This document shows positions 1,469-56,770 of a stretch of 64,000 bases of DNA, piece after piece. The stretch is taken from assembly GCF_040054535.1 (NCBI RefSeq), contig NC_090797.1, forward strand, positions 12,409,501 through 12,473,500. Direction: 5' to 3'. Positions within the stretch are counted from its first letter, which is position 1. Each line of letters begins with the position of its first letter. The notes below the pieces were generated by a model that ran no database searches, was not told the DNA's origin, and worked only from the letters and a program-made list of their open reading frames with translations. The position numbers were made by a program, and so were the translations under genes. Origin of the DNA: Antennarius striatus (Eukaryota > Chordata > Actinopteri > Lophiiformes > Antennariidae).

Positions 1469-3650
1469 ATGAAAGGTAAATCCACCAACATTTAATTCCA
1501 CCCGTGGAAAACTGTTATTCAGTGTTTAATCAAGAAAAAATAGAAACACACGGAGAAAATTCACGTTTGTGGTTCATCATATCAGAGGTGACTTCAGGGA
1601 TTCGAATCATTATCAAAAAATTTGGATTACAAGTATTGCAAAATGAAATTTGAAAATTGATGATCTCTAATTACATCCCATGAAGCGATGATGTCAGTAG
1701 AAAGATAAAACAAAAAGCACAATCCTCGGGCAACAAAGGGGATGAAAATGAGATGATGACCTTGACCTTGAGAAAACTAGGTCAAGGTCAAATTTCAACT
1801 TTTGTTCATTTTTTGCACATATCTTAGGAACCGGATGAGATAGAAAAATGAACCAAAAGGCGTTATATTCAGGGAGGCAAAAAGGATAAAAATTAGATCA
1901 CAACCTTGACCTTGAAAAACTAGGTCAAGATCAAATTTTTACTTTTATACCATTTTCGGAACACCTCTCTGATACCTGATGAGATATAATCACAAAACGA
2001 AAAGCAACATTTTCAGGAAGCCAGAGGCACAAAAATGTGATGATGACCTTCACCTTTGGAAAATTAGGTCAATGTCATACTCGATAGAACATTATAGAAG
2101 TCATTGCTGAAAGTAAGGAACATTATGAAAGTAACTCAGGGTAAAATTTTGAATTCAGGGATGTCGCAGTCTCTGACTGCCTTGTTTAATTTGTCTTTGT
2201 CAGCAGTGTCTGTATATTAATAATATACATATTATATAATTGTAATGAGATTTCTACAATGTCTCCGACAGTTTTTAAGCGTTTTTGGAGATTCACAGCT
2301 GACTACAGACTTCAGCCTCAGCCTCTTCATCAGTGGAAGACCTCTGATGACCTCAGAGACCCCACAAAGATTCAGGGGGCTGAACAACAGACGGGTTTAT
2401 TTTCAAGTAAGTCTCTGGAAATTTAATCCACTACTGTCTATAACAGGAGCATCACAGTTTATGTGAAGTTTTGCAAACAAGACAACAAAAAGTTAGTCTT
2501 CCTTTCTAACATGAAGTAGAAGTAGCTCAGAATTCCACTTCAGTACAATACATAAGACAAACCTGCTGTCAGCTTAAACCAGTAGTTGTAAAATTAAATT
2601 CATAATATATTTTAAAAACATTTAATTTCTATTTAAATATTTAGTTGCTGCTTTCCTGTGGTTTAACGTAATTTAAAAGCTTTAAATTACATTGTAGAAT
2701 AGTAACATTGTAATCAGGGAGTGAAGGTACTAACTCAGTGTTTTCTGATGCCAATGACAGGACTAAGAACGTTCCTGAGGAAGAAAATCCATACCAGGAG
2801 ACGTGGGTCTCAATCTCAGTCCATGGAGACACAGGAGCCGGACAAGAAAATCAGTCCAGTGAAGAAGAAGAAGCAGTTTGAGGATAAATATTGTCAACTG
2901 TACCGACTCGGTGATGGAGGCCAGGGATCTGTGTACATGGGTTACAGGAAGGAAGATTTTGTCCACGTAGCGATCAAGCACATTCCCCAGACCCTTGTTT
3001 TCCGTGAAGACGACGACAGGAGCAAGATGCCTCTTGAAGTGCTTTTCATGAAGATGAGTCAACAAGCAGGAGGATCGGTTGGCCAGTCAGCATCCATTTC
3101 CCTCCTGGACCACTACGACCTGGAGGAGGAGCTCATCATCGTCATGGAATGTCCATTTCCAGCGGTTGACCTCTTGAATTACAGCAAGTCCAGAGGAGGT
3201 ACTTTGGAGGAAGAGGAGGCCAGACTCTTCTTCAAGCAGCTGGTGGAAGCTGTCAGAGAACTTGATGCCAACAAGATTTTCCATGCAGACATCAAAATGG
3301 AAAATATCTTGGTTGACATCAGCAGCGGTGTTCCACGTTTGAGGATAATTGACTTTGGTCTAAGCATGTTTATCAATGACGGGGACACAATCGAAGGTAT
3401 ATATCGTGGAACCCCTTCCTATTACCCACCAGAGTGGTCCTGGAGTTCAGTGTACAGGAGCAGGCCTGTTACTGTGTGGCAGATGGGAGTGGTTCTCTAT
3501 AACATGCTGCACCAACACTTTTTGAAGAGCCTCTGCATCAGTCAGAAGTTGTCTCCAAACTGCCAAAACGTGTTGCGTCTGTGTCTGGCTGAGGACCCTC
3601 AGCAGCGTCCCACTCTGGAGCAGCTCCTGAGTCATTCCTGGCTGGAATGA
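1469..3650 (+). CDS. Pim-like serine/threonine kinase, type 1 (copy A), three exons
   Basis: This is a protein kinase of the Pim-related group that is expanded in fishes. My model has exon 1 at 1469-1475 (ATGAAAG, donor GTAAAT), exon 2 at 2272-2406 (donor GTAAGT) and exon 3 at 2761-3650. All junctions are phase 1 and give 343 codons. The glycine loop GDGGQGSV is near residues 98-105, VAIK lysine 120, C-helix Glu 140, the catalytic loop HADIKMEN at 222-229, DFG at 245-247, then GTPSYYPPEW, the Pim-type activation-segment end. HRD has become HAD, although Asp, Lys and Asn remain. A basic, Ser-rich linker precedes the kinase domain. AATAAA at 3758-3763 is the likely polyA signal. Copy D differs by one residue that I see (R versus S after SSVY). 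Pim1 is about 313 residues, so the length fits with a longer N-terminus. Confidence 0.85.
1741..2085. repeat. Tandem AGGTCA/TGACCT inverted-repeat array in kinase intron 1 (A)
   Basis: Roughly three degenerate units of about 140 bp each carry an inverted pair, TGACCTTGACCTTG then about 8 bp then AGGTCAAGGTCA. The same array occurs at about 9934-10275 (B) and 46020-46370 (D), but not in the type 2 kinase introns of C and E. TCAAGGTCA is a nuclear-receptor half-site (NR5A/ERR type). The pattern is seen; regulatory use is speculative. Confidence 0.6.
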
Positions 3651-14627: not shown

Positions 14628-14631
14628 GGTA

Positions 14632-15277
14632 TGTTGGAATTATATCTTTTTATGTTATGTTGGAATTATATCTTTTTATGTTATTTTGCTGTGGAAAGTT
14701 ACTGAGCTTAAAGTTCATCTTAGGTCACATCACGTGACAGTTAGAACTGCTGACTTATGCTAAATTGCTTGCACAGCTAGTCGAGCAGAAACTCTTGCAA
14801 GGCCGTCTTCCTCTTTCTTCTCTGATAATTGGTGTATATCTTCTTAGATAATTGGCGTATAGCTACGATAGTTTTCATGACCTGTCTGCTTATCACCTCT
14901 TGCCAGGCCGTCTGCAAGGCCGTCTTCCTCTTTCTTCTCAGATAATTGGGGCATCATGACATCACCTGAATGTAACCCACTGTCTTGCCTGCTATCTTGC
15001 AGCTGTTGTGATACCAGGTGAACCCCGCCTTCTGATGTGCATAAAATCCATGTGCTGCAAGTGCATCCTGGCACTCTGCAGGAAGTAATCTCCCATGAGA
15101 CAAAGTGCCGAGAATATTCTCTTTGCAATTGAAAAATAAACTTTGAAGCTTCGACATTTCACTGAGTGTTTTGTTTATTTAACTCTGTTCAGAAATTGTC
15201 CACAACCAAGAGAAAACGAACACGAAGCTGGAGGACCAAGGGTCTTTAGGACCATATTATTTGGCTCCACTTCAACA
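14632..15277 (+). repeat. ERV 5' LTR, 646 bp
   Basis: Begins TGTTGGAATT and ends CTTCAACA. A 26-bp tandem duplication forms the first 52 bases. AATAAA lies at about 15135 in the expected R region. The LTR is identical in length to the 3' LTR. Confidence 0.95.
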
Positions 15278-15278
15278 T

Positions 15279-15297
15279 TTGGTGACCCCGACGTGAT
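15279..15297 (+). promoter_or_regulatory. ERV primer binding site, tRNA-Trp type
   Basis: TGGTGACCCCGACGTGAT follows the LTR after two bases. It is the exact complement of the 3' end of vertebrate tRNA-Trp as I know it (…ATCACGTCGGGGTCA plus CCA). Confidence 0.88.
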
Positions 15298-15345
15298 CTT
15301 GGCTGGACTCCTGCCGGACAGAGACAACTCCAAAGGGTACCCCGA

Positions 15346-15358
15346 CTTGTAAGGTAAG
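15346..15358 (+). promoter_or_regulatory. Likely ERV major splice donor
   Basis: GTAAGGTAAGAGG is a near-consensus donor in the leader, upstream of gag. It would join to an acceptor upstream of env; a CTCTCTACAAG site near 22450 is one candidate. Inference from position and consensus. Confidence 0.5.
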
Positions 15359-15492
15359 AGGAACTTTGCCTCTTAGGGCCTTGTCTCTGCCTGTCAGTAT
15401 AAGGTTAAAATCTGTCTTTCCCTATTTGGAAAACGTTCTAGAATCATTGACTCGAACACCAGTGATTTGATTTAATAGACGTCTTTTTGTGA

Positions 15493-15690
15493 ATGTCAAA
15501 CTGGACGCTGTTTGGATTGATCGGTCTTTTAATTATACTTTGTGTCAGCGTCTGGTGGTTCTTACACCTAAATTATTCTTACAGTAAGAACACTCAACTA
15601 GGTTTACAGACGTTCAAACCTAGTTGTTTTAATACTGCGGTCGCTCAAAGAGTTTGTGGGGTTGCCCCAGCTGATGACATTAGGCTGTAG
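15493..15690 (+). CDS. ERV leader ORF, 65-residue membrane microprotein (putative)
   Basis: ATG at 15493 opens 65 codons ending TAG. Residues about 6-24 are one hydrophobic segment (LFGLIGLLIILCVSVWWFL), followed by a polar tail. It lies between the probable splice donor and gag, so only unspliced RNA would carry it. I recognise no family. It could be a chance ORF or a remnant of an N-terminally extended gag leader protein. Codons are not otherwise diagnostic. Confidence 0.4.
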   Translation: MSNWTLFGLIGLLIILCVSVWWFLHLNYSYSKNTQLGLQTFKPSCFNTAVAQRVCGVAPADDIRL

Positions 15691-15933
15691 AGGTTAAAGC
15701 AAACTATTGGCTAAAAACGTCTGGTAAATTCTTCCATAACTGAGTAGACTGAGAGGATTGTCTGGGACATCCTGCGCGCTAGAGATTTTGCGTCTGGGAC
15801 GCCCGTCTGGGAATATTAGTGAAACGATCCGGGATCGTGGGTCGAGTGATACTGAGTTCCGTGTTGAGGTTCTCGGAGGAAACGACGCCGAATTTTCTTA
15901 ACTAAATTGGGAAAAGGCCTAATAGAATTTACA

Positions 15934-18082
15934 ATGGAAGGTGAATTCGATCGGGAAACAGACTGGTTCAACTGGAACTTAATTCCAGACGACCCAGATG
16001 GTGCACCATTAGAAAATCAAGCAAAAATTGCTATTTTAGTGGCATCCGAGGGACTGCCCACAAAGATCCGCAGTAAGACGGAGTCTGAAATGAAAGATTG
16101 GTTTGAAGATTGCTGTAAAAAGGATGGTTACCACCGCTAACATCCAAAAAATCATTCGTCTTACTGATGAAAGAGGTTGAAAAAGCATGCATTAAAAAGT
16201 TAAATGTACTGGCCACAACTGTCTCTGCAACAAATAGAATCAGTATTCCAGGAAGGCGGGCACGAGAGTCATATGTAAAGGTGGAAAAAGTTAAGTCACA
16301 TGTACGATTGCTGTCAATGGGAGGATCAGTCAGAGTAAGTAGACAAGAGGTCAAAGAAAAGTGTGCTTGGAATAATCCTGACCCGCCTCCTTATCTGGGG
16401 GAGAATTTTGCATCTGTTTTTTCCAAAACTAACCCGTTTGCCAGTAATCCTTATGCAGAATTACAACAGACTCTGACTCTGACTCAGACCAGACCAGACC
16501 CGCCGTCACTATACTTCCAGGCACCAGTCTGGAACATCACCAGCGGGAAACTGCACATGGATCAGACCGCCCCATCCGCGCCCACACCCGCGACTGAAGG
16601 TAAAGTGGTACCGGAACATGTCAGAATCATGGCCGCGCCCTGTGAACGAGCTAACAAACAGCTTAAAGATGAGTTTGAAGAAATCCTCAGGACCAGTAAA
16701 ACTTATCCGGACCTGAGGCTTGCCCTGAGTGAGTTCAAGACGGAGCTGCTGCGCAGAGGGAATGCCTCCCGCAGCGTCAGAGACGAACTCCGTCAGAGGG
16801 TCCTACAAGCAGAACAAGAAGCGGAGGAACACTTCAAGACGTCACTCAAACATCATGAGGTATCATTTGACAACGAACAACATTCCACTTTACAGAAACA
16901 GGTGGCTGCACTTCAGGAACAGCTCTGTCGCCTCTCTTCCCGAGTGGAACCTCCCGTCTCCGCTCTTCCCCTCCCTTCTCTCCCTCCCCGGCCTCCAACC
17001 CCGCCTCCCTGTCAGCCCACCTCAGAGGGACCTGTGACTCGATCCAGAGCCGCTGTACAAGCTCCATTGATGGATACAGTGGACCCCAACTCCGGACGGC
17101 GTGTTGCCGTCTACCGCCCTTTCCCTGCAGCAGATCTCAATGCCATGCTTCAGACATTGCCACCTATTTCATCGGGGGGACGCAATTGGTTTGCATCCGT
17201 GCAGCGTCAGGCTATGGGCCACGACTTGTGTGTTGGTGACATGCAAATGATTTTAACTAAAGTATGTCCTTTGTCTATCTTACCACAGGTTCTAGAGGAA
17301 ACAGGGGTGGGTCGTATGGCTAAAGATGAACCTCTAGACCACGAAAATTTGGACCGCATGACGTAGGTCTTAACGCACATTTCCCTTTGCCTCTGTGTGC
17401 TGTCCATGACATGGTGTTCACTCCAAAAGTTGGAGAGGACGCGACTACTTACGTTGATCGGGCCAAAACTGAATATCACATTAAAACAGGTTTTCTACAT
17501 AATACCTCGCCTTTCCATGACTCAGTCTTTCGAGCTTCCATTTTGAAGGGGATTCCCAAAACAGTGGTTACCGCCATGGAAAACATACCAGATCTGGCTG
17601 AAATGACGGATGACCGGTGGTGTTCCTGCCTGAGACACTTTCTGAGGAGACATGCCAAAGAAAAAGATACTAAGGTAGAAAAACATCAAACTGCTGTTTC
17701 TCAATTGACCGTCATGCAGATCCAGGACATCAAGAAGAAAGAGGACTCTGTCTCCTCTCCTGCCTCTGCTCTTCCACCTGATGATGCAGATAGAATGATG
17801 TATCAGTCGGGGCCACGATCTTGGGGTGGGGCTGACACTCAACGTTACGTATGTTTCCGCTGTGGCAGAGAAGGTCATTGGGTCAAAGATTGCCCCGAGA
17901 GGCCCCCACCTAGGGGGCGTGGTCGTGGATTCCAACGCCCTCGTGGACGTGGCAGAGACATGGGACGGTGGCAGTCTCTAGATCGGCAGCAGTACCAACA
18001 GCGCCGCCCAGTGGACTCCAACCAAGGTTCGCCCGTCCCGAATCGCCAGCGTCTGCCCCCTGGTGAACAGTTCTCACAATGA
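15934..18082 (+). pseudogene. ERV gag (matrix, capsid, nucleocapsid), two frame changes
   Basis: Gag structural polyprotein read in three pieces: ATG 15934 to TAA 16138-16140; a second frame with its own ATG at 16167 to TAG 17364-17366; and a third frame to TGA 18080-18082. The middle part has a charged, coiled-coil-like stretch, then a Pro-rich segment, then the capsid start. The last part holds a CCHC zinc knuckle CFRCGREGHWVKDC (17852-17893) followed by an Arg/Gly/Pro tail. Frame changes sit near 16110-16145 and 17361-17366. They may be inactivating mutations or consensus errors. The final stop is in the same frame as pol. Confidence 0.85.
18080..18082 (+). promoter_or_regulatory. gag-pol UGA stop, possible readthrough site
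   Basis: The nucleocapsid frame and the protease frame are the same; only this TGA (context CAATGAAGA) separates them. Gamma- and epsilonretroviruses make Gag-Pol by stop-codon readthrough, classically at UAG. Readthrough here is inference. Confidence 0.55.
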
Positions 18083-18109
18083 AGATGCCCTGAACCCACG
18101 GACATAGGC

Positions 18110-21100
18110 ATGCAGGAGCCTATGATCACCATTACGGTAGGAGGAGTGTCAACTCCTTTTATGGTTGATACTGGTGCCCGTTATTCCACCATCCAACGGC
18201 TTCCTCCTGGCGCCTATGTCACCAATGACGTAATTCCTTTAGTTGGGTTCAAGGGTGAAGAAATTGCCCTGCCAAAGACTTCCTCCATTTTGGTTTCTGC
18301 ACACAACCAGTTATTAACTCACTCCTTTATCCTGGCTCCCTCCAGCCCTGCCAATCTTTTAGGGCGTGATTTAATGTGCAAGTTGTGTCCTTTGATAAAG
18401 TGTTCTGCCGACGGCCTGCAACTGATGTTTCCGGATGGATCATCCCGACTGTGCCTGTCTGCCACCAACCCCGTCAACACCATGTTTCCGGTACATGCCA
18501 AAGTTGCTGTGGTGTGCATGTATGCTGACATCTTTTGGGTTGTGATGGACACTGATGCTGGACAGTGGACTCCTGTTGAGACTTTCTGGACAAAGTGGTC
18601 GCCCTGGGTCCGTCACCTACGCCCCTATGATCTGGTCTCTGACGCTTTGCATTGTACTCTGTATTATGACAGGATGGAAGACACAATTTTCCTGGGAGCC
18701 TTCCAGGAGGTGGAAGGACTCCCGTGGGATCTCTCTCTCCAAGATCTCTACGTAGGACCTCAGGGTGTGGCTTGGGCCGTATCCTTGACGCCCGAACAGC
18801 AGAAGTGGTATCATATGGATGATCCTCCAGATCCTTCGATGCCGCCTTGCTATCCTCATGTCTCCTTGGCTGTCTCCCCAAAACACACACAGAAAGATCT
18901 GGGTCCCTTCGTGAAAGCTTGCATCGATGCTGATGATTGGAAGCCGACATTCTACTCTGGTTTGCACTATTCTGCATCTCTTGACTCATATCGCATTTTG
19001 TCTCCAGAATTTGTGATCCCTTCCGTCCTAGAACACAGCGTCCTGGACAGGCACCATGGCAGAGAAACATCCGACAGCGATTTGGCACCTGCGCTGATTG
19101 ACTCTCTTCCCGACTCCCTCTGGACCCAGGGTCCTACGGATGTCGGTCGTTGTGACGTCACGCCAGTCACGTTTCAAATGAAACCGGGTCCCATTTGGGT
19201 TCCTCAATATCCGGTTCCTGCGAAGGGTAAGGCCGGTGTAACTGAGACCATAAACGGGTTGCTTGAAGCTGGTGTGCTTGCTCTAATTGAAAGCTCTCCT
19301 TTTAATACACCCATTCTCCCTGTAGAAAAGAAAGGTACAGGCAAATGGAGGATGGTCCATGATTTGAGAGCTATAAATGCTGCAGTCACCACTCCCACCC
19401 TTCCGGTCCCGAACCCTCATGCTGCACTCTCACTGTTGTCGCCCTCTCACACTCACTTCACTGTCATCGACTTGGCTAATGCTTTTTTCAGTATTCCTCT
19501 TCATCCATCCATGAAACCTTATCTGGCCTTCACCTGGGATGGAAGGAGATACTCCTACAACTGTCTGCCCATGGGGTTCCTCCTTTCTCCTGGTCTCTTC
19601 AACGTCCATCTTCGTGAGCTTCTGAAACCTTTGTCTCTTCCGCCCGGTGTGCTCCTCGTCCAGTACGTCGATGACCTCCTGGTTGCGGCTCCATCAGAGC
19701 AATCCTGTCTGGACACGACTCACTCTCTGCTCCTTCGTCTCCATGAAGTAGGCCTTAAAGTTTCTAAATCCAAAATTCAAGTTGCCAGAACTCAAGTCTC
19801 TTTCCTTGGTCGCTGTGTATCCCGGATGGGCACAGGCCTCTCCTCCTCGCACAGAGAAGACATTTTACACTCTGCTCGTCCATCTACCGTGAAGCAAATG
19901 CTAGCTTTTCTGGGGTTGTGTAACTACTCTCGCCATCATGTTGTTGACTTCTCAGAGTGCACGCATCCTCTCCGTGCTATGGTCAAGGAAGTCGGCATGC
20001 GGAACCTTTCAGCCGCTTTGGCCTGGACTCCGGACGCTGATGCTGCCTTTTCTCACCTTAAGGCATGTTTGGCCTCTGCTACATCTCTTTCCATTCCTGA
20101 CTACAATAAGATGTTTTTCCTCGATGTGGCTGAAAAAGCAAGCAGTGTTTCTGCTGTGCTTTTTCAAAAGGGGGATAGAGGAGAACGAAACGTCTGTATG
20201 TATGTCTCAACACCATTGGACAATTATGAAAAACGCCAAACGCCCTGTTCATCTTTTGCCTCAGCACTAGCTAGGTTGGTCCAGAAAACTGCCCACGTGG
20301 TACTTCATCATCCACTGACCATCAGAACTGGACACAGCACTGTCCAATACATCACAAGCCAATTCTTCACCATGACTGGAGGACGCCAACGCAAGATTGA
20401 ATCGGTCATCACTCAACCACACATCATCTTCATCCATGAAGGGATCAATATGGCTGATGGTCTGATTGAAGGTACCCCACACTTTTGTACAGAAAAAGTC
20501 CAAGACGACACAAAACTCAGAGATGACTTGTACGAACAGCCATTGACTAACCCCGACATGACGTTGTTCACCGACGGATGTTGTTTTAAAGGCATGGATG
20601 GCCTGCAATCAGGTTTTGCCATAGTTCAACATCAAAACGACGATTTTGAGACAGTTAAGGAAGTCAGACTGGACGGACCACAGTCAGCACAGAGAGCTGA
20701 AATCCTAGCAGTCGCAGAAGCTCTAGGACTCGCAAAAGACCAAACTGTAAATATCTACACTGATTCTGCTTATGCTCATTTGGTTGTACATACTGCATTA
20801 AGTGAATGGCAACGGAACAATTATCAGACAGCAACAGGAAGTCCAATTAAACACCTGAAAGAGGTAATGCATCTCCAGGAAATGCTGATGTTGCCAAAAG
20901 CTGTTGCTGTTATCAAGTGTCCAGGTCATTCCAGAAAAAATGACCTGATTGCAAATGGAAACGCCGCAGCAGATGCAGCTGCTAAAAAGGTGGCAGGTTA
21001 TCAGCCAGCACTCCAACTCTCGGTGAGTGACAAAGAAATTGATTGCAAAATAACGAATGATGTGATCCGAGAGTGGCAGGTGAAAGCTAGCCCAGAAGAA

Positions 21101-22195
21101 AGGAGTTTGTGGAAGGCAAAAGGGGGTGAAAAGAATGATGAAGGAATCTGGAACAAAGAAGGTAAACCTGTGCCGCCTCAAAAACAATTGAAAGTTTTGA
21201 TTCAAGAAGCCCATGGACCATGCCACGTAGGCACGGACGAAACACTGAGACGTCTCTGTGGCTGGTGGCATCCGTTCATGAGAACAATTGTGAAAAGTGA
21301 ACTGCAGGACTGCAGTGTTTGCAATAGGCATAATTGCCTGCCAACAACTAAACCACCTCCAGGGGTGCAGGACCAGGAAGTGACAGCACCTGGTCAGGTA
21401 ATTTCAATGGATTTTACCGACATGATCCAATCGGTTAATGGGTATCGATACCTGTTAGTGATTGTTGACTCTTTTTCAGGATGGCCTGAGGCTTATCCAT
21501 GCAGAGCAGAGACAGCAGCTTCTGTAGTGAAACATTTGGTTAACCATTACATTCCAACTCATGGTTTTCCGAGAAAAATCAGGTCAGACAATGGAACTCA
21601 TTTCAAAAACAAACATCTACAACAGGTGGAAAGTATGTTGGGATTGAGACACACTTTTGGCGCTGTGTATCACCCTCAGTCACAGGGAAAGGTCGAACGA
21701 ATGAATCGCAACATCAAAGAAAAATTGTCAAAATCCATGGCCTCGTCAAAGATGAATTGGCTACAGGCCCTCCCTGTGGCTCTGTTGAATGTCAGAATGT
21801 CATTGAATTCATCCACAGGTTGGACCCCATTTGAGGCACACACTAACAGACCTTTTCCAGCTCCCACAGCTCCATTGGAACCAGTTCCCGGATTCCAAGG
21901 CCCAAAAGGCCTCCGCGAACTAACAGTCAATTTTTCCCATCTCACAGAACCACAGGAGAAACCACCAAAAAGTGTGAATGTGTGTGAATGGGTGTGGCTG
22001 AGAGTAATCAAACGAAAATGGTCTGAACCTAGGTGGACAGGTCCCCATCAAGTCATTGAGAGAACCGGAACCGCAGTTCGGCTTCTAGGAAGAGGGGACA
22101 CGTGGTTTCATCTGACGTCCACCAGGCCTGCAAAGACCCCAACGGGAGTCGCTCTCCCCTCTCCAAAAGCTGCTAATAGTGGTGACGACCACTAG
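18110..22195 (+). CDS. ERV Pol: protease, unusual 2H-like region, RT, RNase H, integrase
   Basis: The ORF holds 1361 codons from the first ATG after the gag stop; real translation would enter by readthrough. Aspartic protease DTGA at residues 20-23 with LLGRDL downstream. Residues about 115-340 form an extra region carrying HCT (181-183) and HVS (250-252), each inside a beta-like stretch, as in 2H phosphoesterases. RT has Asp454 and YVDD at 519-522. RNase H has Asp822, Glu864 and Asp885. The integrase zinc finger uses His1035, His1039, Cys1068 and Cys1071. The catalytic D,D35E triad is Asp1101, Asp1160, Glu1196, and a GPHQVIERTGTAVRL module is near the end. All catalytic residues are present, so pol may still encode active enzyme. 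Confidence 0.93.
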   Translation: MQEPMITITVGGVSTPFMVDTGARYSTIQRLPPGAYVTNDVIPLVGFKGEEIALPKTSSILVSAHNQLLTHSFILAPSSPANLLGRDLMCKLCPLIKCSADGLQLMFPDGSSRLCLSATNPVNTMFPVHAKVAVVCMYADIFWVVMDTDAGQWTPVETFWTKWSPWVRHLRPYDLVSDALHCTLYYDRMEDTIFLGAFQEVEGLPWDLSLQDLYVGPQGVAWAVSLTPEQQKWYHMDDPPDPSMPPCYPHVSLAVSPKHTQKDLGPFVKACIDADDWKPTFYSGLHYSASLDSYRILSPEFVIPSVLEHSVLDRHHGRETSDSDLAPALIDSLPDSLWTQGPTDVGRCDVTPVTFQMKPGPIWVPQYPVPAKGKAGVTETINGLLEAGVLALIESSPFNTPILPVEKKGTGKWRMVHDLRAINAAVTTPTLPVPNPHAALSLLSPSHTHFTVIDLANAFFSIPLHPSMKPYLAFTWDGRRYSYNCLPMGFLLSPGLFNVHLRELLKPLSLPPGVLLVQYVDDLLVAAPSEQSCLDTTHSLLLRLHEVGLKVSKSKIQVARTQVSFLGRCVSRMGTGLSSSHREDILHSARPSTVKQMLAFLGLCNYSRHHVVDFSECTHPLRAMVKEVGMRNLSAALAWTPDADAAFSHLKACLASATSLSIPDYNKMFFLDVAEKASSVSAVLFQKGDRGERNVCMYVSTPLDNYEKRQTPCSSFASALARLVQKTAHVVLHHPLTIRTGHSTVQYITSQFFTMTGGRQRKIESVITQPHIIFIHEGINMADGLIEGTPHFCTEKVQDDTKLRDDLYEQPLTNPDMTLFTDGCCFKGMDGLQSGFAIVQHQNDDFETVKEVRLDGPQSAQRAEILAVAEALGLAKDQTVNIYTDSAYAHLVVHTALSEWQRNNYQTATGSPIKHLKEVMHLQEMLMLPKAVAVIKCPGHSRKNDLIANGNAAADAAAKKVAGYQPALQLSVSDKEIDCKITNDVIREWQVKASPEERSLWKAKGGEKNDEGIWNKEGKPVPPQKQLKVLIQEAHGPCHVGTDETLRRLCGWWHPFMRTIVKSELQDCSVCNRHNCLPTTKPPPGVQDQEVTAPGQVISMDFTDMIQSVNGYRYLLVIVDSFSGWPEAYPCRAETAASVVKHLVNHYIPTHGFPRKIRSDNGTHFKNKHLQQVESMLGLRHTFGAVYHPQSQGKVERMNRNIKEKLSKSMASSKMNWLQALPVALLNVRMSLNSSTGWTPFEAHTNRPFPAPTAPLEPVPGFQGPKGLRELTVNFSHLTEPQEKPPKSVNVCEWVWLRVIKRKWSEPRWTGPHQVIERTGTAVRLLGRGDTWFHLTSTRPAKTPTGVALPSPKAANSGDDH

Positions 22196-22474
22196 GGCAT
22201 CCGCCCCAACTGAGGACATCGAGCAACGGCTCCAACTGAGGACATCGAGTGAGTGGTTGTTCAACGTGGCGTAAAGTCACAAAGCAACCCGAGAGCAGGC
22301 AATTACGTTCAGTAACTGACCTAAGCTTTTGAAGAGACCCCAGCGGTCACGGTGCAGCGTTCCCGAGCATCGCTCTCAACCAGCGTCCGGACGAGCCAGT
22401 ATCCAGAGGGGTCAACCCAGAGGAAAAGGTGCAAGACCTCCCTCTCTACAAGCAACAACCGTTATCTTCAGTCT
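22196..22474 (+). other. pol-env spacer of the ERV
   Basis: Contains a short direct repeat just after pol (GCATCCGCCCCAACTGAGGACATCG-like, about 22198-22246) and a possible env splice acceptor near 22450. An open frame from 22329 is continuous with env but starts in non-env sequence. Confidence 0.45.
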
Positions 22475-22495
22475 AAAAAAAAAAAAAAAAAAAAA
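22475..22495 (+). repeat. A21 homopolymer directly before env
   Basis: Twenty-one consecutive A, one base before the env ATG at 22497. Confidence 0.97.
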
Positions 22496-22496
22496 C

Positions 22497-22997
22497 ATGC
22501 TGTATTTCCTTGTTTTTAGTCTTTTGGCTGTCACTGCTGCATCCTCTCCTGACAAATGTTTACAACAGTATGGTGGGTTAACGCTTAGCTACACTGAGGG
22601 GGCTACAGCTTCTTATACCTTTGATCTCTGCAAAGTAATTAACTGCAGGGGTCCTGGCGCACCATGGCGACACTATGATGTTTACATCTGCGGTCACAGT
22701 GACAACTCCCTTAATGACCCGTGGTGTGCTTCTTGGTCCTCTGTTTGGTATTCCACAGAACATGGGTTCCAGCCCCCCACTTCTGGATTGGGCTCCTTCT
22801 TTTCTCTGCAAAGGGATTACTCCCCCACAAGTAATCCTTTAACTCTGTCCATTAAACCCCTATTTTTCCCAACATCTCAATGTCATGCTAGTGTTATGGA
22901 ACCCTGCGGAAGGTTCTCTCCCGGCAGCAGGTTTTGCTCTACAGATTTTCTACATTTAATTTTAGGTGTTGGACTCTTTCGAGTCCAAAAGGGGGAT
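22497..22997 (+). pseudogene. ERV env, N-terminal part only
   Basis: ATG 22497 begins a hydrophobic signal peptide (LYFLVFSLLAVTA) followed by a Cys-rich ectodomain start. The frame stays open through the polypurine tract into the 3' LTR (to 23129). Only about 165 codons lie before the LTR. There is no furin site, fusion peptide, CX6CC or membrane anchor, so most of SU and all of TM are deleted. The last residues before the LTR (LGVGLFRVQKGD) may be the original cytoplasmic end joined by that deletion; this is inference. Confidence 0.75.
22985..22997 (+). promoter_or_regulatory. ERV polypurine tract
   Basis: AAAAGGGGGA lies immediately upstream of the 3' LTR, the expected plus-strand primer. 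Confidence 0.85.
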
Positions 22998-23643
22998 TGT
23001 TGGAATTATATCTTTTTATGTTATGTTGGAATTATATCTTTTTATGTTATTTTGCTGTGGAAAGTTACTGAGCTTAAAGTTCATCTTAGGTCACATCACG
23101 TGACAGTTAGAACTGCTGACTTATGCTAAATTGCTTGCACAGCTAGTCGAGCAGAAACTCTTGCAAGGCCGTCTTCCTCTTTCTTCTCTGATAATTGGTG
23201 TATATCTTCTTAGATAATTGGCGTATAGCTACGATAGTTTTCATGACCTGTCTGCTTATCACCTCTTGCCAGGCCGTCTGCAAGGCCGTCTTCCTCCTTC
23301 TTCTCAGATAATTGGGGCATCATGACATCACCTGAATGTAACCCACTGTCTTGCCTGCTATCTTGCAGCTGTTGTGATACCAGGTGAACCCCGCCTTCTG
23401 ATGTGCATAAAATCCATGTGCTGCAAGTGCATCCTGGCACTCTGCAGGAAGTAATCTCCCATGAGACAAAGTGCCGAGAATATTCTCTTTGCAATTGAAA
23501 AATAAACTTTGAAGCTTCGACATTTCACTGAGTGTTTTGTTTATTTAACTCTGTTCAGAAATTGTCCACAACCAAGAGAAAACGAACACGAAGCTGGAGG
23601 ACCAAGGGTCTTTAGGACCATATTATTTGGCTCCACTTCAACA
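22998..23643 (+). repeat. ERV 3' LTR, 646 bp
   Basis: Matches the 5' LTR across its length. The only difference I see is T versus C in CTTCCTCTTTC / CTTCCTCCTTC near 23298. It includes the same 26-bp terminal tandem duplication. Confidence 0.95.
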
Positions 23644-25354: not shown

Positions 25355-28300
25355 ATGAAAGGTAAATCCACCAACATTTAATTCCACCCGTGGAAAACTG
25401 TTATTCAGTGTTTAATCAAGAAAAAATAGAAACACACGGAGCAAATTCACGTTTGTGGTTCATCATATCAGAGGTGACTTCAGGGATTTGAATCATTATC
25501 AAAAAATTATATTTTTATATTAGACAATATTAGAGATCTAATAACCTGCTGTAATCACAGGAACTGTCTTCAGTTCATTTTCTGTACCAAAGGAAAAAGG
25601 GTTATATTGGGGTTTTTTTAACTGTTTTGTATTTTATTTTATTTTAATTTTTTTTAAAAATAAATAAGATAAAGCTGATGAGCCATATATTGAGCAGCAG
25701 TATATTTCATGTCAAAAGGAGTACTACAAATGCAGTATTTGCTCTGAGGATGTTGATAGAGAAGTACAGAGAAGTCCACAATGACTACAATGTTTGCAGA
25801 TGACATTGTGATCTGCAGTGAGAGCAGGGAACAGGTGGAGGAGAAGTAAATAATAATATTATTAATATAATACGATGTTTATGTTAAATAATATTTCAAA
25901 ACTTAGTTAATAAACAAGTGATTTAGTTCATAACATAGTACAAAAACTAGGTAGTTTAGAACCTTATTTGTTCAAAACCTAATGGGTTAGTTAGTAAGTT
26001 AGTTATTTAGTTAGTTAGTCAGTTAGTCAGTTAATTGAGAAACTGGTTAGTTAAAATCCTAGTTAGTTGTTTAGTTTGACACCTTAGTTCATCCATCCAT
26101 CCATCCATTCTCTTCCGCTTATCCGGGGTCGGGTCGCGGGGGCAGCAGCTTAAGCAGGGAAGCCCAGACTTCCCTCTCCCTAGCCACTTCATCCAGCTCC
26201 TCCGGGAGAATCCCAAGGCGTTCCCAGGCCAGCCGGGAGACATAGTCTCTCCAGCGTGTCCTGGGTCGTCCCCGGGGCCTCCTCCCGGTAGGACGTGCCC
26301 GGAACACCTCACCAGGGAGGCGTCCAGGAGGCATCCTAACCAGATGCCCGAGCCACCTCATCTGGCTCCTCTCGATGCGGAGGAGCAGCAGCTCGACTCT
26401 GAGTCCCTCCCGGATGGCCGAACTCCTCACCCTATCTCTAAGGGAGAGTCCGGGCACCCTACGGAGGAAACTCATTTCGGCCGCTTGTATCCGGGATCTC
26501 GTTCTTTCGGTCACGACCCATAGCTCGTGACCATAGGTGAGGGTAGGAACGTAGATCGACCGGTAAATCGAGAGCTTTGCCTTTCGGCTCAGCTCCTTCT
26601 TCACCACGACAGACCGATACAGAGTCCGCATCACTGCAGACGCTGCACCGATCCGCCTGTCGATCTCCCGTTCCATTGTACCCTCACTCGTGAACGAGAC
26701 CCCAAGATACTTGAACTCCTCCACTTGGGGCAGGATCTCATCCCCAACCTGGAGAGGGCACTCCACCCTTTTCCGACTGAGGACCATGGTCTCAGATTTG
26801 GAGGTGCTGATTCTCATCCCAACCGCTTCACACTCGGCTGCGAACCGTTCCAGTGAGAGTTGGAGATCACGGCTTGATGAAGCCAACAGCACCACGTCGT
26901 CTGCAAAAAGCAGAGACGCGATACTGAGGCCACCAAACCGAACACCCTCAACGCCTTGGCTGCGCCTAGAAATTCTGTCCATAAAAGTTATGAACAGAAT
27001 CGGTGACAAAGGGCAGCCTTGGCGGAGTCCAACCCTCACTGGAAACGAATCCGACTTACTGCCGGCAACGCGGACCAAACTCTGACATTGGTCGTACAGG
27101 GACCGAACAGCACTTATCAAGGGGTCCGGTACCCCATACTCCCGAAGCACCCCCCACAGAACCCCCCGAGGAACACGGTCGAACGCCTTCTCCAAGTCCA
27201 CAAAACACATGTAGACTGGTTGGGCGAACTCCCATGCCCCCTCAAGGACCCTGCGGAGGGTGTAGAGCTGGTCCACTGTTCCACGGCCAGGACGAAAACC
27301 ACACTGCTCCTCCTGAATCCGAGATTCGACTTCCCGACGGACCCTCCTCTCCAGAACCCCTGAATAGACCTTACCAGGGAGGCTGAGGAGTGTGATGCCC
27401 CTGTAGTTGGAGCACACCCTCCTGTCCCCCTTCTTAAAAAGGGGGACCACCACCCCAGTCTGCCAATCCAGAGGCACTGTCCCCGAAGTCCACGCGATGT
27501 TGCAGAGGCGTGTCAACCAGGACAGCCCCACAACATCCAGAGCCTTTAGGAACTCCGGGCGGATCTCATCCACCCCCGGGGCCCTGCCGCCGAGGAGCTT
27601 TTTAACTACCTCGGTGACCTCAACCCCAGAGATAGGAGAGCCCGCCTCAGAGAACCCAGACTCTGCTTCCTCATGGGAAGGCGTGTCTGCGGGATTGAGG
27701 AGGTCTTCGAAGTATTCTCCCCACCGAGTCACAACGTCCCGAGTTGAGGTCAGCAGCTCCCCATCCCCACTATATACAGTGTGGATGCTGCACTGCTTCC
27801 CCCTCCCGAGACGCCTGATGGTGGACCAGAATCTCTTCGAAGCCGTCTTGAAGTCGTCCTCCAAGGCCTCACCGAACTCCTCCCACGCCCGGGTTTTTGC
27901 CTCAGCAACCACCAAAGCCGCATTCCGCTTGGCCTGCCGGTACCTATCAGCTGCTTCAGGAGTCCCACAGGCCAAAAAGGCCCGATAGGACTCCTTCTTC
28001 AGCTTGACGGCATCCCTTACCGCTGATGTCCACCAACGGGTTCTGGGGTTGCCGCCACGACAGGCACCGACCACCTTACGGCCGCAGCTGCGGTCGGCCG
28101 CCTCGACAATGGAGGCGCGGAACATGGTCCACTCAGACTCAATGTCCCCCGCCTCCCCCGGAACGTGAGTGAAGTTCTGCCGGAGGTGGGAGTTGAAACT
28201 CCTTCTGACAGGGGATTCCGCCAGGCGTTCCCAGCAGACCCTCACAATACGTTTGGGTCTGCCAGGTCGGACCGGCATCTTCCCCCACCATCGGAGCCAA

Positions 28301-31300
28301 CACACCACCAGGTGGTGATCGGTTGACAGCTCCGCCCCTCTCTTCACCCGAGTGTCCAAGACATGCGGCCGCAAGTCAGATGACACGACCACAAAGTCGA
28401 TCATCGAACTGCGGCCTAGGGTGTCCTGGTGCCAAGTGCACATATGGACACCCTTATGTCTGAACATGGTGTTCGTTATGGACAGTCCGTGACAAGCATA
28501 GAAGTCCAACAACTGAACACCGCTCGGGTTCTGATCGGGGGGGCCGTTCCTCCCAATCACACCCTTCCAGGTCTCACTGTCATTGCCCACGTGAGCATTG
28601 AAGTCCCCCAGCAGAACGATGGAGTCCCCAGTGGGAGCGCTCTCCAGCACCCCCTCCAAGGACTCCAAAAAGGGTGGATACTCTGAACTGCTGTTTGGTG
28701 CATACGCACAAACAACAGTCAGGACCCGGCCCCCCACCCGAAGGCGGAGGGAGGCTACCCTCTCGTCCACCGGGGTGAACCCCAATGTATAGGCACCAAG
28801 CCGGGGGGCTACAAGTATACCCACACCTGCTCGGCGTCTCTCACCATGGGCAACTCCAGAGTGGAAGAGAGTCCAACCCCTCTGGAGAGGACTGGTACCA
28901 GAGCCCAAACTGTGTGTGGAGGTGAGCCCGACTATATCTAGTCGGAACTTCTCAACCTCACACACCAGCTCAGGCTCCTTCCCTGCCAGAGAGGTGACAT
29001 TCCACGTCCCAAGAGCCAGCTTCTGTAGCCGGGGATCGGATCGCCAAGGTCCCTGCCTTCGGCCACCGCCCAGCTCACAATGCACCCGACCCCTATGGCC
29101 CCTCCCACAGGTGGTGAGCCCATGGGAAGGACACCTTGTCATTGTGGTGTGTTGACACCTTAGTTATTTTGTTCAAAAACTAGTTTAAACCTAGCTTGTC
29201 AGTTTAAAACCTAGTTAATAATTATAATAATTTAACAGTGTAAACATAAACAATTGAATAAACGTAAATAATAATTAAATAATAACATCATTAACATAAA
29301 TAACATAAATAACATGAATACACTGTTTATTTTAAATAATAATTCATAACTTAGTGAGTTAGTTCAAAATCTAGTTTCAGGACACCGATGTTCAGATCTT
29401 GGACAGGGAAGATAAATGGTTTGAGAGAGGAGTGAAAGAGGCCATCTCTGAACGGGGGGGGGGGTCTGCGACATCACCTTTCTCCCATTTATAATCATGT
29501 CCTTTCAAAACTCCCAAAAAGATTGTCTCAACAGATTGACCCAGGTGATGAGTCTCATGCTCATGACCCTCATTAGCATACAAAGGTGTAAGTCACATCT
29601 CAGTGACCCCCTCTGACACCCCCACCAACAATCGTTGAGGAACCAGATGGGTTTCAATGACGGTCGTTGGAATGTGAATATCACTGACCACACCCCCCAG
29701 GGTTAATAATGTGGGACATGATCAGCCACCCTCTGAACTGAAGCAGTCTCTTGGATGAGAGACGAAACGTCTTCAAGAACTTTCTTAACGTCCAGTGGAT
29801 CGACTCATGACCTGGATGACTGAGAACCTACACAGACCGTTTAAAACCTAGTTAGTTAGTTAGTTCAAAAACTAATTCGTTTAAAGCCTATTAGTTAGTT
29901 TCTAGTTAGTTGTCTTTGTAGTCTGTGCCTGTATATTAATAATATATATATATGATATAATAGTAATGACATTTCTACAATGTCTCCGACAGTTTTTAAG
30001 CGTTTTTGGAGATTCACAGCTGACTACAGACTTCAGCCTCAGCCTCTTCATCAGTGGAAGACCTCTGATGACCTCAGAGACCCCACAAAGATTCAGGGGG
30101 CTGAACAACAGACGGGTTTATTTTCAAGTAAGTCTCTGGAAATTTAATCCACTACTGTCTATAACAGGAGCATCACAGCTTATGTGAACTTTTGCAAACA
30201 GGACAATGAAAAGTTTGTCTTCCTTTCTAACATGAAGTAGAAGTAGCTCAGAATTCCATTTCAGTACAATACATAAGACAAACCTGCTGTCAGCTTCAAC
30301 CAGTAGTTATAAAATTAAATTTCTAATAGTATACTTATAATATATTTAATTTCTATTTAAATATTTAGTTGCTGCTTTCCTGTGGTTTAAGGTAATTTAA
30401 AAGCTTTAAATTACATAGTAGAATAGTAACATTGTAATCAGTTAGTGAAGGTACTAACTCAGTGTTTTCTGATGCCAATGACAGGACTAAGAACGTTCCT
30501 GAGGAAGAAAATCCATACCAGGAGACGTGGGTCTCAATCTCAGTCCATGGAGACACAGGAGCCGGACAAGAAAATCAGTCCAGTGAAGAAGAAGAAGAAG
30601 AATCAGTTTGAGGATAAATATTGCCAACTGTACCGACTCGGTGATGGAGGCCATGGATCTGTGTACGTGGGTTACAGGAAAAAAGATTTTCTCCGCGTAG
30701 CGATCAAGCACATTCCCCAGGCCTTCGTTTTCCGTGAAGACAACGACAGGAGCAAGATGCCTCTTGAAGTGCTTGTCATGATGAAGATGAGTCAACAAGC
30801 AGGAGGATCGGTTGGCCAGTCAGCATCCATTTCCCTCCTGGACCACTACGACCTGGAGGAGGAGCTCATCATCGTCATGGAATGTCCATTTCCAGCGGTT
30901 GACCTCTTGAATTACAGGAAGTCCAGAGGAGGTACTTTGGAGGAAGAGGAGGCCAGACTCTTCTTCAAGCAGCTGGTGGAAGCTGTCAGAGAACTTGATG
31001 CCAACAAGATTTTCCATGCAGACATCAAAATGGAAAATATCTTGGTTGACATCAGCAGCGGTGTTCCACGTTTGAGGATAATTGACTTTGGTCTAAGCAT
31101 GTTTATCAACGACGGGGACACAATTGAAGATATATTTCCTGGAGCTCCATGCTATGACCCACCAGAGTGGTACTGGAGTTCAGTGTACAGCAGTAGGCCT
31201 GTTACTGTGTGGCAGATGGGAGTGGTTCTCCATGACATGCTGCACAGAGACTTTAATACAACGTTTTTCTTGGAGAATGGCCTCCGTATCAGTCAGGAGT

Positions 31301-31401
31301 TGTCTCCAAACTGCCAAAACGTGTTGCGTCTGTGTCTGGCTGAGGACCCTCAGCAGCGTCCCACTCTGGAGCAGCTCCTGAGTCATTCCTGGCTGGAATG
31401 A
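25355..31401 (+). CDS. Pim-like serine/threonine kinase, type 2 (copy C), Rex3 in intron 1
   Basis: Exons 25355-25361, 29993-30127 and 30485-31401, all phase 1, give 352 codons. Compared with type 1 it has an extra KN in the basic linker, MM before the C-helix segment's KMS, and about eight more residues after the [10 protein letters not shown] segment. The activation segment reads [10 protein letters not shown] instead of GTPSYYPPEW. Gly loop [12 protein letters not shown] Lys, HADIKMEN and DFG are present, with the same HRD-to-HAD change. Intron 1 is 4.6 kb because of Rex3 (26090-29151) and other relics. The 3' UTR has AATAAA at about 31521. Intron 1 shares its first 150 bp with type 1, then differs completely. 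Confidence 0.83.
25510..26075. repeat. Type 2 kinase intron 1, left part: AT-rich and TTAG-type repeats
   Basis: Replaces the AGGTCA array of type 1. It ends in degenerate TTAGTT and CAAAACCTAGTT repeats (about 25905-26075) that resume after Rex3 at 29166. The same segment is in E at 58160-58727. Confidence 0.6.
25781..25849 (+). mobile_element. Tiny LINE RT relic (C)
   Basis: [20 protein letters not shown] and two more residues, then TAA. It carries the RT active-site FADD and flanking residues typical of fish non-LTR elements. Only about 22 codons survive. Same relic in E at 58438-58506. Confidence 0.65.
26090..29151 (-). mobile_element. Rex3 (RTE clade) LINE, 3.06 kb
   Basis: Minus-strand element flanked by a 14-bp target duplication TTGACACCTTAGTT (26076-26089, 29152-29165), with the empty site in E at about 58722-58735. 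Its 3' end (left side) is a short (GATG)n tail, as known for Rex3. CGGTGACAAAGGGCAGCC at 27000 and the reverse of TGGCAGACTGGGGTGGTGGT near 27445-27465 match the conserved Rex3 stretches used in fish surveys, from memory. Almost the whole element is ORF, and it interrupts kinase C intron 1 in antisense. Confidence 0.93.
26119..29142 (-). CDS. Rex3 endonuclease-reverse transcriptase, 1007 aa, intact
   Basis: Single ORF. The N-terminal apurinic-type endonuclease carries [12 protein letters not shown] near residue 180 and STDHHLVV near 295. The RT carries [40 protein letters not shown] and FADDVVLLA near residue 745. The C-terminal part ends in a basic region with [12 protein letters not shown]. 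No stop or frame change is seen, so the protein may be active. The start is the first ATG of the open frame; the 5' end lies a few bases inside the element, so this may be a slightly 5'-truncated copy. Confidence 0.93.
29166..29380. repeat. TTAG/CAAAACCTAGTT degenerate repeat, right of Rex3
   Basis: Continues the interrupted repeat; matches 58736-58949 in E. Confidence 0.6.
29381..29830 (+). mobile_element. Penelope-like element, C-terminal and 3' relic (C)
   Basis: Plus strand reads [20 protein letters not shown] followed by AI, the end of the GIY-YIG endonuclease region of Penelope-like ORFs. A deletion near a G tract and non-coding 3' sequence follow, including the common LDERRETSSRTF-type stretch near 29750-29800. 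Matches 58950-59400 in E. It sits in kinase intron 1, so it is spliced out. Confidence 0.75.
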
Positions 31402-38700: not shown

Positions 38701-38920
38701 CCAGGTTGATTTGGCCTATAGATTATTTTTTGTGGTTTGATAAGATTTTGGTAGTGCTAGCGCCTAGTAACAAGACAACAGTAGTGGCGAAGAGGAGTTC
38801 TGCCCAGCCTGGTGAGAGTACCACTGCTACGTGAGGACGAGACGTCAGCGGCACGGGGCTAGGGGACCAGAGAAACAAGAATTCCCAGAGACTGTGAGGT
38901 TCAAAAAGAGACATTACATG

Positions 38921-40024
38921 ATGTCGGAAGGGGAAGAAACCCCAGGGGTGTCCAGGCCAGTCCAAGTCGGGGGAGAGTCGGCTGCATCATCGAGTGGAGA
39001 TCACCTGTCAAGTCTACAGTCACAATTAACTGAGCTGAGTAAAAAACATGATGCTGTGATGTCCAGTATTGCCTCTTTGGGTAATGCACAACCAAGGTCT
39101 GTTGTATATGTACCAAGAGAAAGGCAGATTGTACCTTTTAATGGTGACTCAGGAAAAGATGCTCAGTCTGTTGATGAGTTTATTGACGAGATAGAAAGGG
39201 CAATAAGTCTGAGAGGTCTAAGGGAAGCTGACCAAGTAGACTTTATCCTGTCACATTTAAGAGGATCTGCCTTAGATGAAATTAAGTTACGCACATATAG
39301 ACAGGATAAGAAACCCAGTGATCTGTTTTCATACCTACGGGAGGCGTTTAGAGAGAAACGCACCACACCACAGTTGCTACATGCATTCTACGCGCGCAGA
39401 CAGTCAGAGGGAGAAGACCTGAGAGACTATTCGCATGCCCTCTCTCAGCTGTTCAATACCGCGTTACTCACTTCTCCTGACGTTGTTTGTGACCCACAGC
39501 TTGCGGTGCGCGACCAGTTCATTGAAGGTTTGCGTGACTCCACCCTTCGTCGTGAACTCAGGAGGCTCACAAGAGAAAAACCACAATCCAGCCTGGTTGA
39601 GGTTAGAGAGGAGGCTATTATGTGGACCATGGAGGATCGACCCAGAGGTAGCAGTGTGGCGAGGAGTAGAAACATGGTGGGAGATAGACTTGATGGACAT
39701 CCAGTGAACAGTGTGTCTGCTCATGACTCTGGAAGTGATTTAACCTTAGCTCTCCAGGAAGTTGTTAAAATGATGGCTGAACAAGGCAAGGCGATTGGAG
39801 AGCTGACCAGTGCCGTACGTGAGCTCACCAGTCAGAAAACCAGGCCTAGTGCGACAAGCTTACCTAATAAGCCGAAGGTAACTCCCAGATACACGGAAGA
39901 TGGCCAGCCTATATGCCTAAGGTGTGAAGGAGTAGGCCATATGGCCAGGCAGTGCACTACACGCAGGGCCCAAACTAGTCCAAGGCCTACAGTGCAGGGA
40001 AACGAGGATCCTCGGTTGCAATGA
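38921..40024 (+). CDS. Gypsy Gag with CCHC knuckle
   Basis: The open frame begins at 38831 (no ATG); the first good ATG is 38921, giving 367 codons. Middle part resembles Ty3/gypsy capsid (VPFNGDSGKDAQSVDEFIDE, then a LREAFREKRT stretch). The zinc knuckle CLRCEGVGHMARQC is at 39914-39955. It makes the virus-like particle shell and packages RNA. The stop TGA at 40022-40024 overlaps the pol start as ATGA. Confidence 0.88.
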   Translation: MSEGEETPGVSRPVQVGGESAASSSGDHLSSLQSQLTELSKKHDAVMSSIASLGNAQPRSVVYVPRERQIVPFNGDSGKDAQSVDEFIDEIERAISLRGLREADQVDFILSHLRGSALDEIKLRTYRQDKKPSDLFSYLREAFREKRTTPQLLHAFYARRQSEGEDLRDYSHALSQLFNTALLTSPDVVCDPQLAVRDQFIEGLRDSTLRRELRRLTREKPQSSLVEVREEAIMWTMEDRPRGSSVARSRNMVGDRLDGHPVNSVSAHDSGSDLTLALQEVVKMMAEQGKAIGELTSAVRELTSQKTRPSATSLPNKPKVTPRYTEDGQPICLRCEGVGHMARQCTTRRAQTSPRPTVQGNEDPRLQ

Positions 40025-55924: not shown

Positions 55925-56770
55925 TTTCCTCAGCTAGCTTCAGAAGGGTTCAAAAACACATTTCACTATTTTTAGAAATATTACCAACAAATGAAGTAAA
56001 TACGTGATCAGGAAAACTACACCGCCCCTCATCCTCACCAGTACGAAATAAAATCTAAATTAAAGTATCGTTTACTCTCGTTTAATTGGTCTAAACAAGA
56101 TGGCGACTGTAAATGTAGGGTGTGGCTGTGCAATGCCGCTAGTAGCTAATGAGCCACTATTAGCATTAACATAAATTCAATATGTATACATTACTATAAT
56201 ATAACTCCACACAGAATATCCGACTTTCAAGGTAGGGGTTAGAATTACGATACTTTGCGATAGTCCTTAAACTGAACGAGCTAATTAAAATCAGATAAGG
56301 GTAGAATGACAGTGTCCGAATTGGATAGCTGAGAGGGAGTTTTTTCCTTCAAATCGAAACATCGCGAACAAAGTAAATTTGCATAAAGGAATCATTATTT
56401 ATCAAATTTTATGACGACTTTAATATTATACTTACTTTAAATGTTGACTTCTGCTGGCAGTGAACTCTAGAGGTCACGTACGATGCGTGTCCACAGGTGT
56501 TCTGAGTACCACTACGGCAAATTAGTCACGGGCCTCATCACCGAGCGCATTGATACGCTTCCTGTATCTCCCGAGACCCTCTAGTCAGCTCAATTCAGGC
56601 TGCGTTATGTGTTTGAAGAGCAGGTTGTTCATATTTAACTCAATAAAGAATAACAATTCAGCAGTGATTGAGGAAAAAAGTTTTCCAGAAAAGAGGCAGA
56701 ACTACTTTTCGGAGCGCAGTGATCCGTGTGCTCTAGGGTAATTTACTATTCAGCCCGCTTTCTTTGCTCT
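55925..56770 (-). promoter_or_regulatory. piwil1 upstream region and sub-unit D tail
   Basis: Shared with B before and after the ERV; the uninterrupted GGTAGAATGAC at about 56299 is the ERV empty site. No TATA box or known element recognised. Confidence 0.4.

Follow-up and report, generated by a model that had tools for sequence, protein, structure and literature searches.

A predicted CNPase-like 2H phosphoesterase domain between protease and reverse transcriptase in the Pol frame of fish endogenous retroviruses

What occupies the long interval between protease and reverse transcriptase (RT) in the Pol frame of an endogenous retrovirus (ERV) of the frogfish Antennarius striatus? The provirus lies at 14632-23643 of a 64,000-nucleotide stretch, the whole of which is here called the window (C22:12409501-12473500 of a 548 Mb host assembly). 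A sequence-only reading had noted an unusual insert carrying two H-x-T/S motifs, the signature of the 2H phosphoesterase fold. The observation is confirmed, and the 236-residue interval gave no Pfam match at an expectation value (E) of 10. Computation shows a predicted 2H fold, an active site that is conserved, and a layout shared by many fish ERVs. The insert is probably a 2H domain nearest to CNPase and RICH, which would hydrolyse a cyclic phosphate or nucleotide in the newly infected cell.

The two motifs, HCT and HVS, stand at the positions first claimed for them (Table 1). However, such a pair says little on its own, since two H-x-S/T motifs 50-100 residues apart turn up in 19.4% of 20,000 shuffled versions of Pol 105-345, and the same region holds a third H-x-S (HYS at 286), which falls outside the columns conserved at at least 85%. 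The case is therefore made by conservation and fold.

Relatives were collected both with and without reference to the domain. The window domain and a relative's domain, used as queries, yielded lists of 4 and 40 proteins, respectively; among the matches listed, all named organisms are teleosts, and the domain in the window's Pol shares 99% identity with a protein of Antennarius striatus. In a 43-row comparison with one truncated row, the first His and its Thr are each kept in 42 of 43, and the second His and its Ser/Thr in 42 of 42. A search with RT only, blind to the domain, gave 289 proteins; the 120 that were listed entered the analysis. Domains and motifs were then counted in 131 sequences (130 proteins and the window), with the domain called at E <1e-3. 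It is present in 109 of the 131, including 66 of the 88 proteins new from the RT-only search. Both motif columns are covered in 91 of the 109, with both motifs intact in 88 of these. Among the 91, the first motif has its H in 89 and, at the third position, T in 89 and S in 1; the second has H in all 91, with S in 49 and T in 42. The two His and two Ser/Thr are thus conserved in related ERVs, where their loss would have refuted the sequence-only reading, and their columns rank among the domain's most conserved. For most rows, identity to the window is 34-43% in the domain against 45-57% in RT.

The 22 RT-only proteins without the domain comprise 13 that start fewer than 100 residues before RT and nine with more room, the latter including an amphibian, a mammal and a bird. 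On the RT tree, domain presence changes 19 times against a shuffled mean of 20.7, a value as low being reached in 76 of 500 shuffles, so presence is not clustered. The domain-less fish rows are scattered among domain-bearing ones and therefore look like truncated or partial gene models; the time at which the domain was gained could not be placed on this tree. A scan of IMG/VR with the domain profile gave 30 pattern matches, with no relative among them. Separately, one database protein with this RT (P0044) also carries precomputed RNA-dependent RNA polymerase family and other matches, and is possibly a chimeric or misassembled entry.

The predicted model of the insert matches 2H proteins by both Foldseek and VIA-align, in line with the fold first proposed, and the two motifs sit on its strands (model residues 86-92 and 155-160). 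The closest solved structures are CNPase and RICH, followed by a fungal RNA-repair protein, with LigT well below; identity to the catalytic domain of vertebrate CNPase and fish RICH in these structure alignments is 11-19%. None of AKAP7, NS2 and VP3 is among the 50 structure matches listed, an absence that carries no evidential weight. The viral Foldseek list includes walleye epidermal hyperplasia virus 1 (E 5.4e-11) and walleye dermal sarcoma virus (E 3.7e-10), and after its first three rows all matches have E 1.7e-3 or worse. In CNPase, according to PMC4643303, His309 activates water, His230 protonates the leaving group to leave a 2'-phosphate product, and Phe235 makes a stacking contact with the base. 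Both His and both Ser/Thr are present in the ERV domain, which carries a Tyr where CNPase has Phe235 (Tyr186 in the window, Tyr in 81 of 91, placed by motif spacing).

Other accounts of the interval were tried and rejected. A chance motif pair is at odds with the retention of both motifs in relatives. An ordinary long linker was also rejected; the window contains a Ty3-like Pol whose protease and RT are likewise far apart, but it gives no 2H-profile match. A listed domain of another kind was rejected by Pfam scans, and NCBIfam returned one chance-level match in 1 of 23 members.

The host genome provides a view of more recent history. Matches to the domain occur at 112 places, some of them pieces of one copy. 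Thirty places, including the window, are stop-free and at least 98% identical over the full query, which indicates that the family spread recently. Motifs were read at 20 of the 112 places plus the window, and both are kept in 15 of these 21 sequences. One divergent copy (L028/L029, G000:C7:1045700-1050700), with a domain 31% identical and an open frame of 1044 residues, has the order protease DTG, 2H motifs, YADD in its Pol frame and shows the same layout in a far lineage. The same match score is found at two more places, C2:453895 and C15:6813540. Purifying selection on the domain is suggested by a single comparison, window with L010, the sole pair both distant and unsaturated, where the ratio of nonsynonymous to synonymous change (dN/dS) is 0.20 at dS 1.19. 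Seven older pairs are at or close to synonymous saturation (proportions of differing synonymous sites, pS, 0.75-0.85; of nonsynonymous sites, pN, 0.29-0.43). Six near pairs give ratios from 0.37 to 1.01, and the window and L009 differ by no synonymous change.

How close is the sequence link to CNPase and RICH? The frogfish gene at C16:3853322-3854204 matches Pfam CNPase, and we take it to be RICH. A local hhalign alignment of this gene with a profile of 85 ERV domains gave E 2e-5 and a probability of 77%; it spans 91 columns, is 27% identical and keeps the two motifs in register, although this was one chosen comparison, not a database search. Several results weigh against the link and against an active enzyme. 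In global mode, hhalign aligned the profile poorly to the same gene (E 0.0071, probability 2.4%), and the hmmsearch alignment (E 3.7e-8 against this one target) misregisters the second motif. In a profile search of PDB, 15 of 16 matches were CNPase, but their E values of 0.75-2 rank below that of an unrelated protein (0.33); a wider profile placed CNPase at E 0.59, behind the same protein at 0.034. Pfam 2H matches are weak and limited to single members (2_5_RNA_ligase2 in 5 of 23, best E 0.0086; CNPase in 2 of 23, best 0.12; LigT in 1 of 23, 0.0015), and the window domain matches no Pfam 2H family. Against Pfam CNPase itself (PF05881, cut-off 25 bits), the window has no match at E 1. As the domain falls below Pfam CNPase recognition, it is classed as CNPase-like within the 2H superfamily and outside Pfam CNPase. 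In the active site, CNPase Arg307 has no counterpart (Tyr248 stands there in the window, placed by motif spacing), and the partner of CNPase Tyr168 shifts by one residue between structure and sequence alignments. Finally, the first motif is altered in three of the 91 relatives (P0032, P0038, P0131), and a motif is missing in six of the 21 host sequences (L012, L017, L018, L019, L024, L026), of which only L024 has a stop within the domain.

The element carrying this domain is an endogenous retrovirus, as LTRs (long terminal repeats), a target duplication and retroviral protease, RT, RNase H and integrase were all found (Table 1). Pol runs from protease through the extra domain to RT, two RNase H-like domains and integrase. 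Downstream of the integrase core, an integrase C-terminus of murine leukaemia virus type (MLVIN_C) scores E 5.1e-6, with 26.5 bits against a cut-off of 29.2. The retrovirus looks epsilon/gamma-like; the RT tree comprises fish ERVs and three non-fish entries. The frogfish provirus is young. Its LTRs are nearly identical, and a 4-bp target duplication, GGTA, is present on both flanks. A paralogous stretch retains the empty target site at 56300-56303, with a single GGTA, the same flanks as at 14631/23644 and no insert, indicating that the provirus inserted after the segmental duplication whose arms, 98.65% identical, hold the filled and empty sites. The env gene is not intact in this provirus; two relatives (P0040, P0049) have a precomputed retroviral env domain, PF00429.

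Table 1. Features of the frogfish provirus, in window positions (ORF, open reading frame)
Feature	Position	Strand	Evidence or remark
5' LTR, TG...CA, 646 bp	14632..15277	+	99.845% identity to 3' LTR over 646 bp
Primer-binding site	15280..15297	+	presumably tRNA-Trp type
Gag-like ORF, first part	16167..17366	+	no Pfam match above cut-off
Gag ORF, second part, different frame, CCHC zinc knuckle	17387..18082	+	zf-CCHC_2 E 4.1e-9; ends at TGA in Pol frame
In-frame TGA between Gag and Pol	18080..18082	+	
Pol ORF, 1361 aa	18110-22195	+	
Aspartic protease (RVP)	18113..18385	+	Pfam RVP, Pol 2-92, E 8.5e-11
Predicted 2H phosphoesterase domain, CNPase-like, Pol 135-313	18512..19048	+	predicted model and structure matches; model residues 40-218 = Pol 135-313
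First putative catalytic motif, HCT, Pol 181-183	18650..18658	+	
Second putative catalytic motif, HVS, Pol 250-252	18857..18865	+	
Conserved linker to RT (HGRExTD ... LW..GPTDVG)	19049..19147	+	mostly low confidence in model
Reverse transcriptase (RVT_1), starts near Pol 406	19325..19810	+	E 2.9e-31
RT-linked RNase H-like domain (RT_RNaseH_2)	20024..20323	+	E 6.8e-16
RNase H	20609..20995	+	E 7.7e-22
Integrase core (rve)	21383..21676	+	E 6.0e-18
Short ORF at env position, extends into 3' LTR	22329..23129	+	no Pfam match
Polypurine tract	22987..22996	+	
3' LTR, 646 bp	22998..23643	+	GGTA beside it

Other elements share the window. Four protein kinase ORFs (2721-3650, 30445-31401, 47002-47931, 60052-61008) lie inside large segmental duplications and form two near-identical pairs (99.7% and 99.8%), with 93.5-93.8% identity between pairs. 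A second retroelement at 38831-44373 has a PNMA-like Gag hint below cut-off, the Ty3-like Pol mentioned above and its long protease-RT stretch, with no 2H domain. A LINE-like (long interspersed nuclear element) ORF on the minus strand, 26119-29142, carries endonuclease and RT domains.

How might the virus use the domain? The TGA between Gag and Pol, identical in the window and seven other copies checked and followed by an RNA fold with z -2.47, may be a readthrough-type junction. Readthrough would yield the domain as part of Gag-Pol, and as a part of Gag-Pol it would be packaged and reach the new cell alongside RT, where it could act. By analogy with CNPase, a 2',3'-cyclic phosphate or a similar nucleotide would be hydrolysed with the help of both His and both Ser/Thr, the second His activating water and the first protonating the leaving group. 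The leading guesses for a substrate are cyclic nucleotides and RNA ends that bear cyclic phosphates, because the fold is nearest to CNPase and then to the fungal RNA-repair protein. The most likely use would be to clear such RNA ends, or cyclic-nucleotide signals, that host nucleases or sensors produce while the virus enters the cell and copies its RNA into DNA. A bolder version appears doubtful on present evidence: that a CNPase-like enzyme, acquired in a single event from an ancestor resembling CNPase/RICH, belongs permanently to Pol throughout a broad radiation of fish epsilon-like retroviruses, and that, carried in the virion, it destroys a cyclic-nucleotide or RNA-end signal at reverse transcription as a counter-defence.

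The main rival substrate is a cyclic dinucleotide, 2',3'-cGAMP, whose degradation would blunt cGAS-STING during retroviral DNA synthesis, as is done by Acb1 of phage and the LigT-like enzymes of avian poxviruses. In favour of this idea, retroviruses synthesise their DNA inside the cell, and the viral fold list includes Acb1 models, the best of them at E 8.1e-3. Avian poxvirus LigT-like enzymes hydrolyse cGAMP, as reported in PMC11410667. However, the nearest fold is CNPase, well above LigT, and cGAMP is considered an unlikely substrate; a search of the host genome for a STING domain gave no match, but says little, its control being likewise silent. The sequence-only reading had instead hinted at 2',5'-oligoadenylate (2-5A), the degradation of which would blunt RNase L, as with the 2H enzymes of some coronaviruses and rotaviruses. 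The superfamily is the same, and the viral fold list contains ORF4b of coronavirus HKU5 (E 1.9e-3) as well as torovirus polyproteins, the latter at E 0.23 or worse. These matches are far weaker than those to CNPase, and the hint found no support, as the nearest known fold is CNPase/RICH rather than a 2-5A-degrading viral enzyme. In addition, OAS genes are absent from some teleosts (accessible text of PMC2852836), making this substrate less likely, and we regard it as very improbable; a host-genome search for OAS1_C gave no match, but with its control again silent this too says little.

Non-enzymatic roles were also considered. The domain could mimic host CNPase or act as a decoy for it; that protein is stimulated by interferon and hinders assembly of human immunodeficiency virus 1 (HIV-1). 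Such a role would fit the similarity to host RICH and the antagonism of HIV-1 particle assembly by CNP1 (reported in PMC10761555), but a decoy would have no need of the four catalytic residues kept in 88 of 91 relatives, and this reading has hardly any likelihood. The lower identity to the window in the domain than in RT and the changed first motif of three relatives would suit an inert insert that spaces protease from RT or serves as a scaffold for folding. Active-site columns among the most conserved and the dN/dS of 0.20 in the one unsaturated pair argue against such a role, which is highly unlikely. A CNPase-like 2H enzyme in Pol is the reading preferred here.

2H and CNPase domains in fish retroviruses have already been reported, according to the accessible text of two citing papers: one names walleye dermal sarcoma virus among the retroviruses that have 2H domains (PMC9503650, citing Mazumder 2002), and the other describes extra reading frames for CNPase or macro domains in some fish epsilon-like ERVs (PMC4977317, citing Basta 2009). 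No functional test of the domain's role for the virus was found in the open-licence literature searched. Walleye dermal sarcoma virus and its relatives are alike in predicted fold, but the matching proteins share only 19-20% identity, are labelled envelope polyproteins and were compared by fold, while the frogfish lineage is endogenous. The fish ERVs of Basta 2009, as described in the citing text, have the same enzyme family in additional ORFs, whereas the frogfish domain lies inside the Pol frame. Vertebrate CNPase and fish RICH differ in their low identity, in Arg307, which is unmatched in the ERV, and in that the ERV domain is embedded in Pol and below Pfam recognition. Viral 2-5A and cGAMP phosphodiesterases (coronavirus, torovirus, rotavirus, avian poxvirus and phage Acb1) have a 2H/LigT-like fold and two catalytic His (PMC11410667, the main text of which, as accessible, contains 'retrovir' 0 times), but their fold matches to the ERV domain are weak.

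To these reports, the present analysis adds three points: the frogfish domain sits within the Pol frame, its active site is almost fully conserved across many fish ERVs, and its predicted fold is closest to CNPase/RICH. Because the domain is small, clearly bounded and conserved, its substrate is within reach of plain biochemistry. If the domain proves active, fish retroviruses of a large group would bring a nucleotide-cleaving enzyme of their own along with RT, and retroviruses would join the virus groups that use 2H enzymes against host nucleotide signals, in this case including some hosts without OAS genes.
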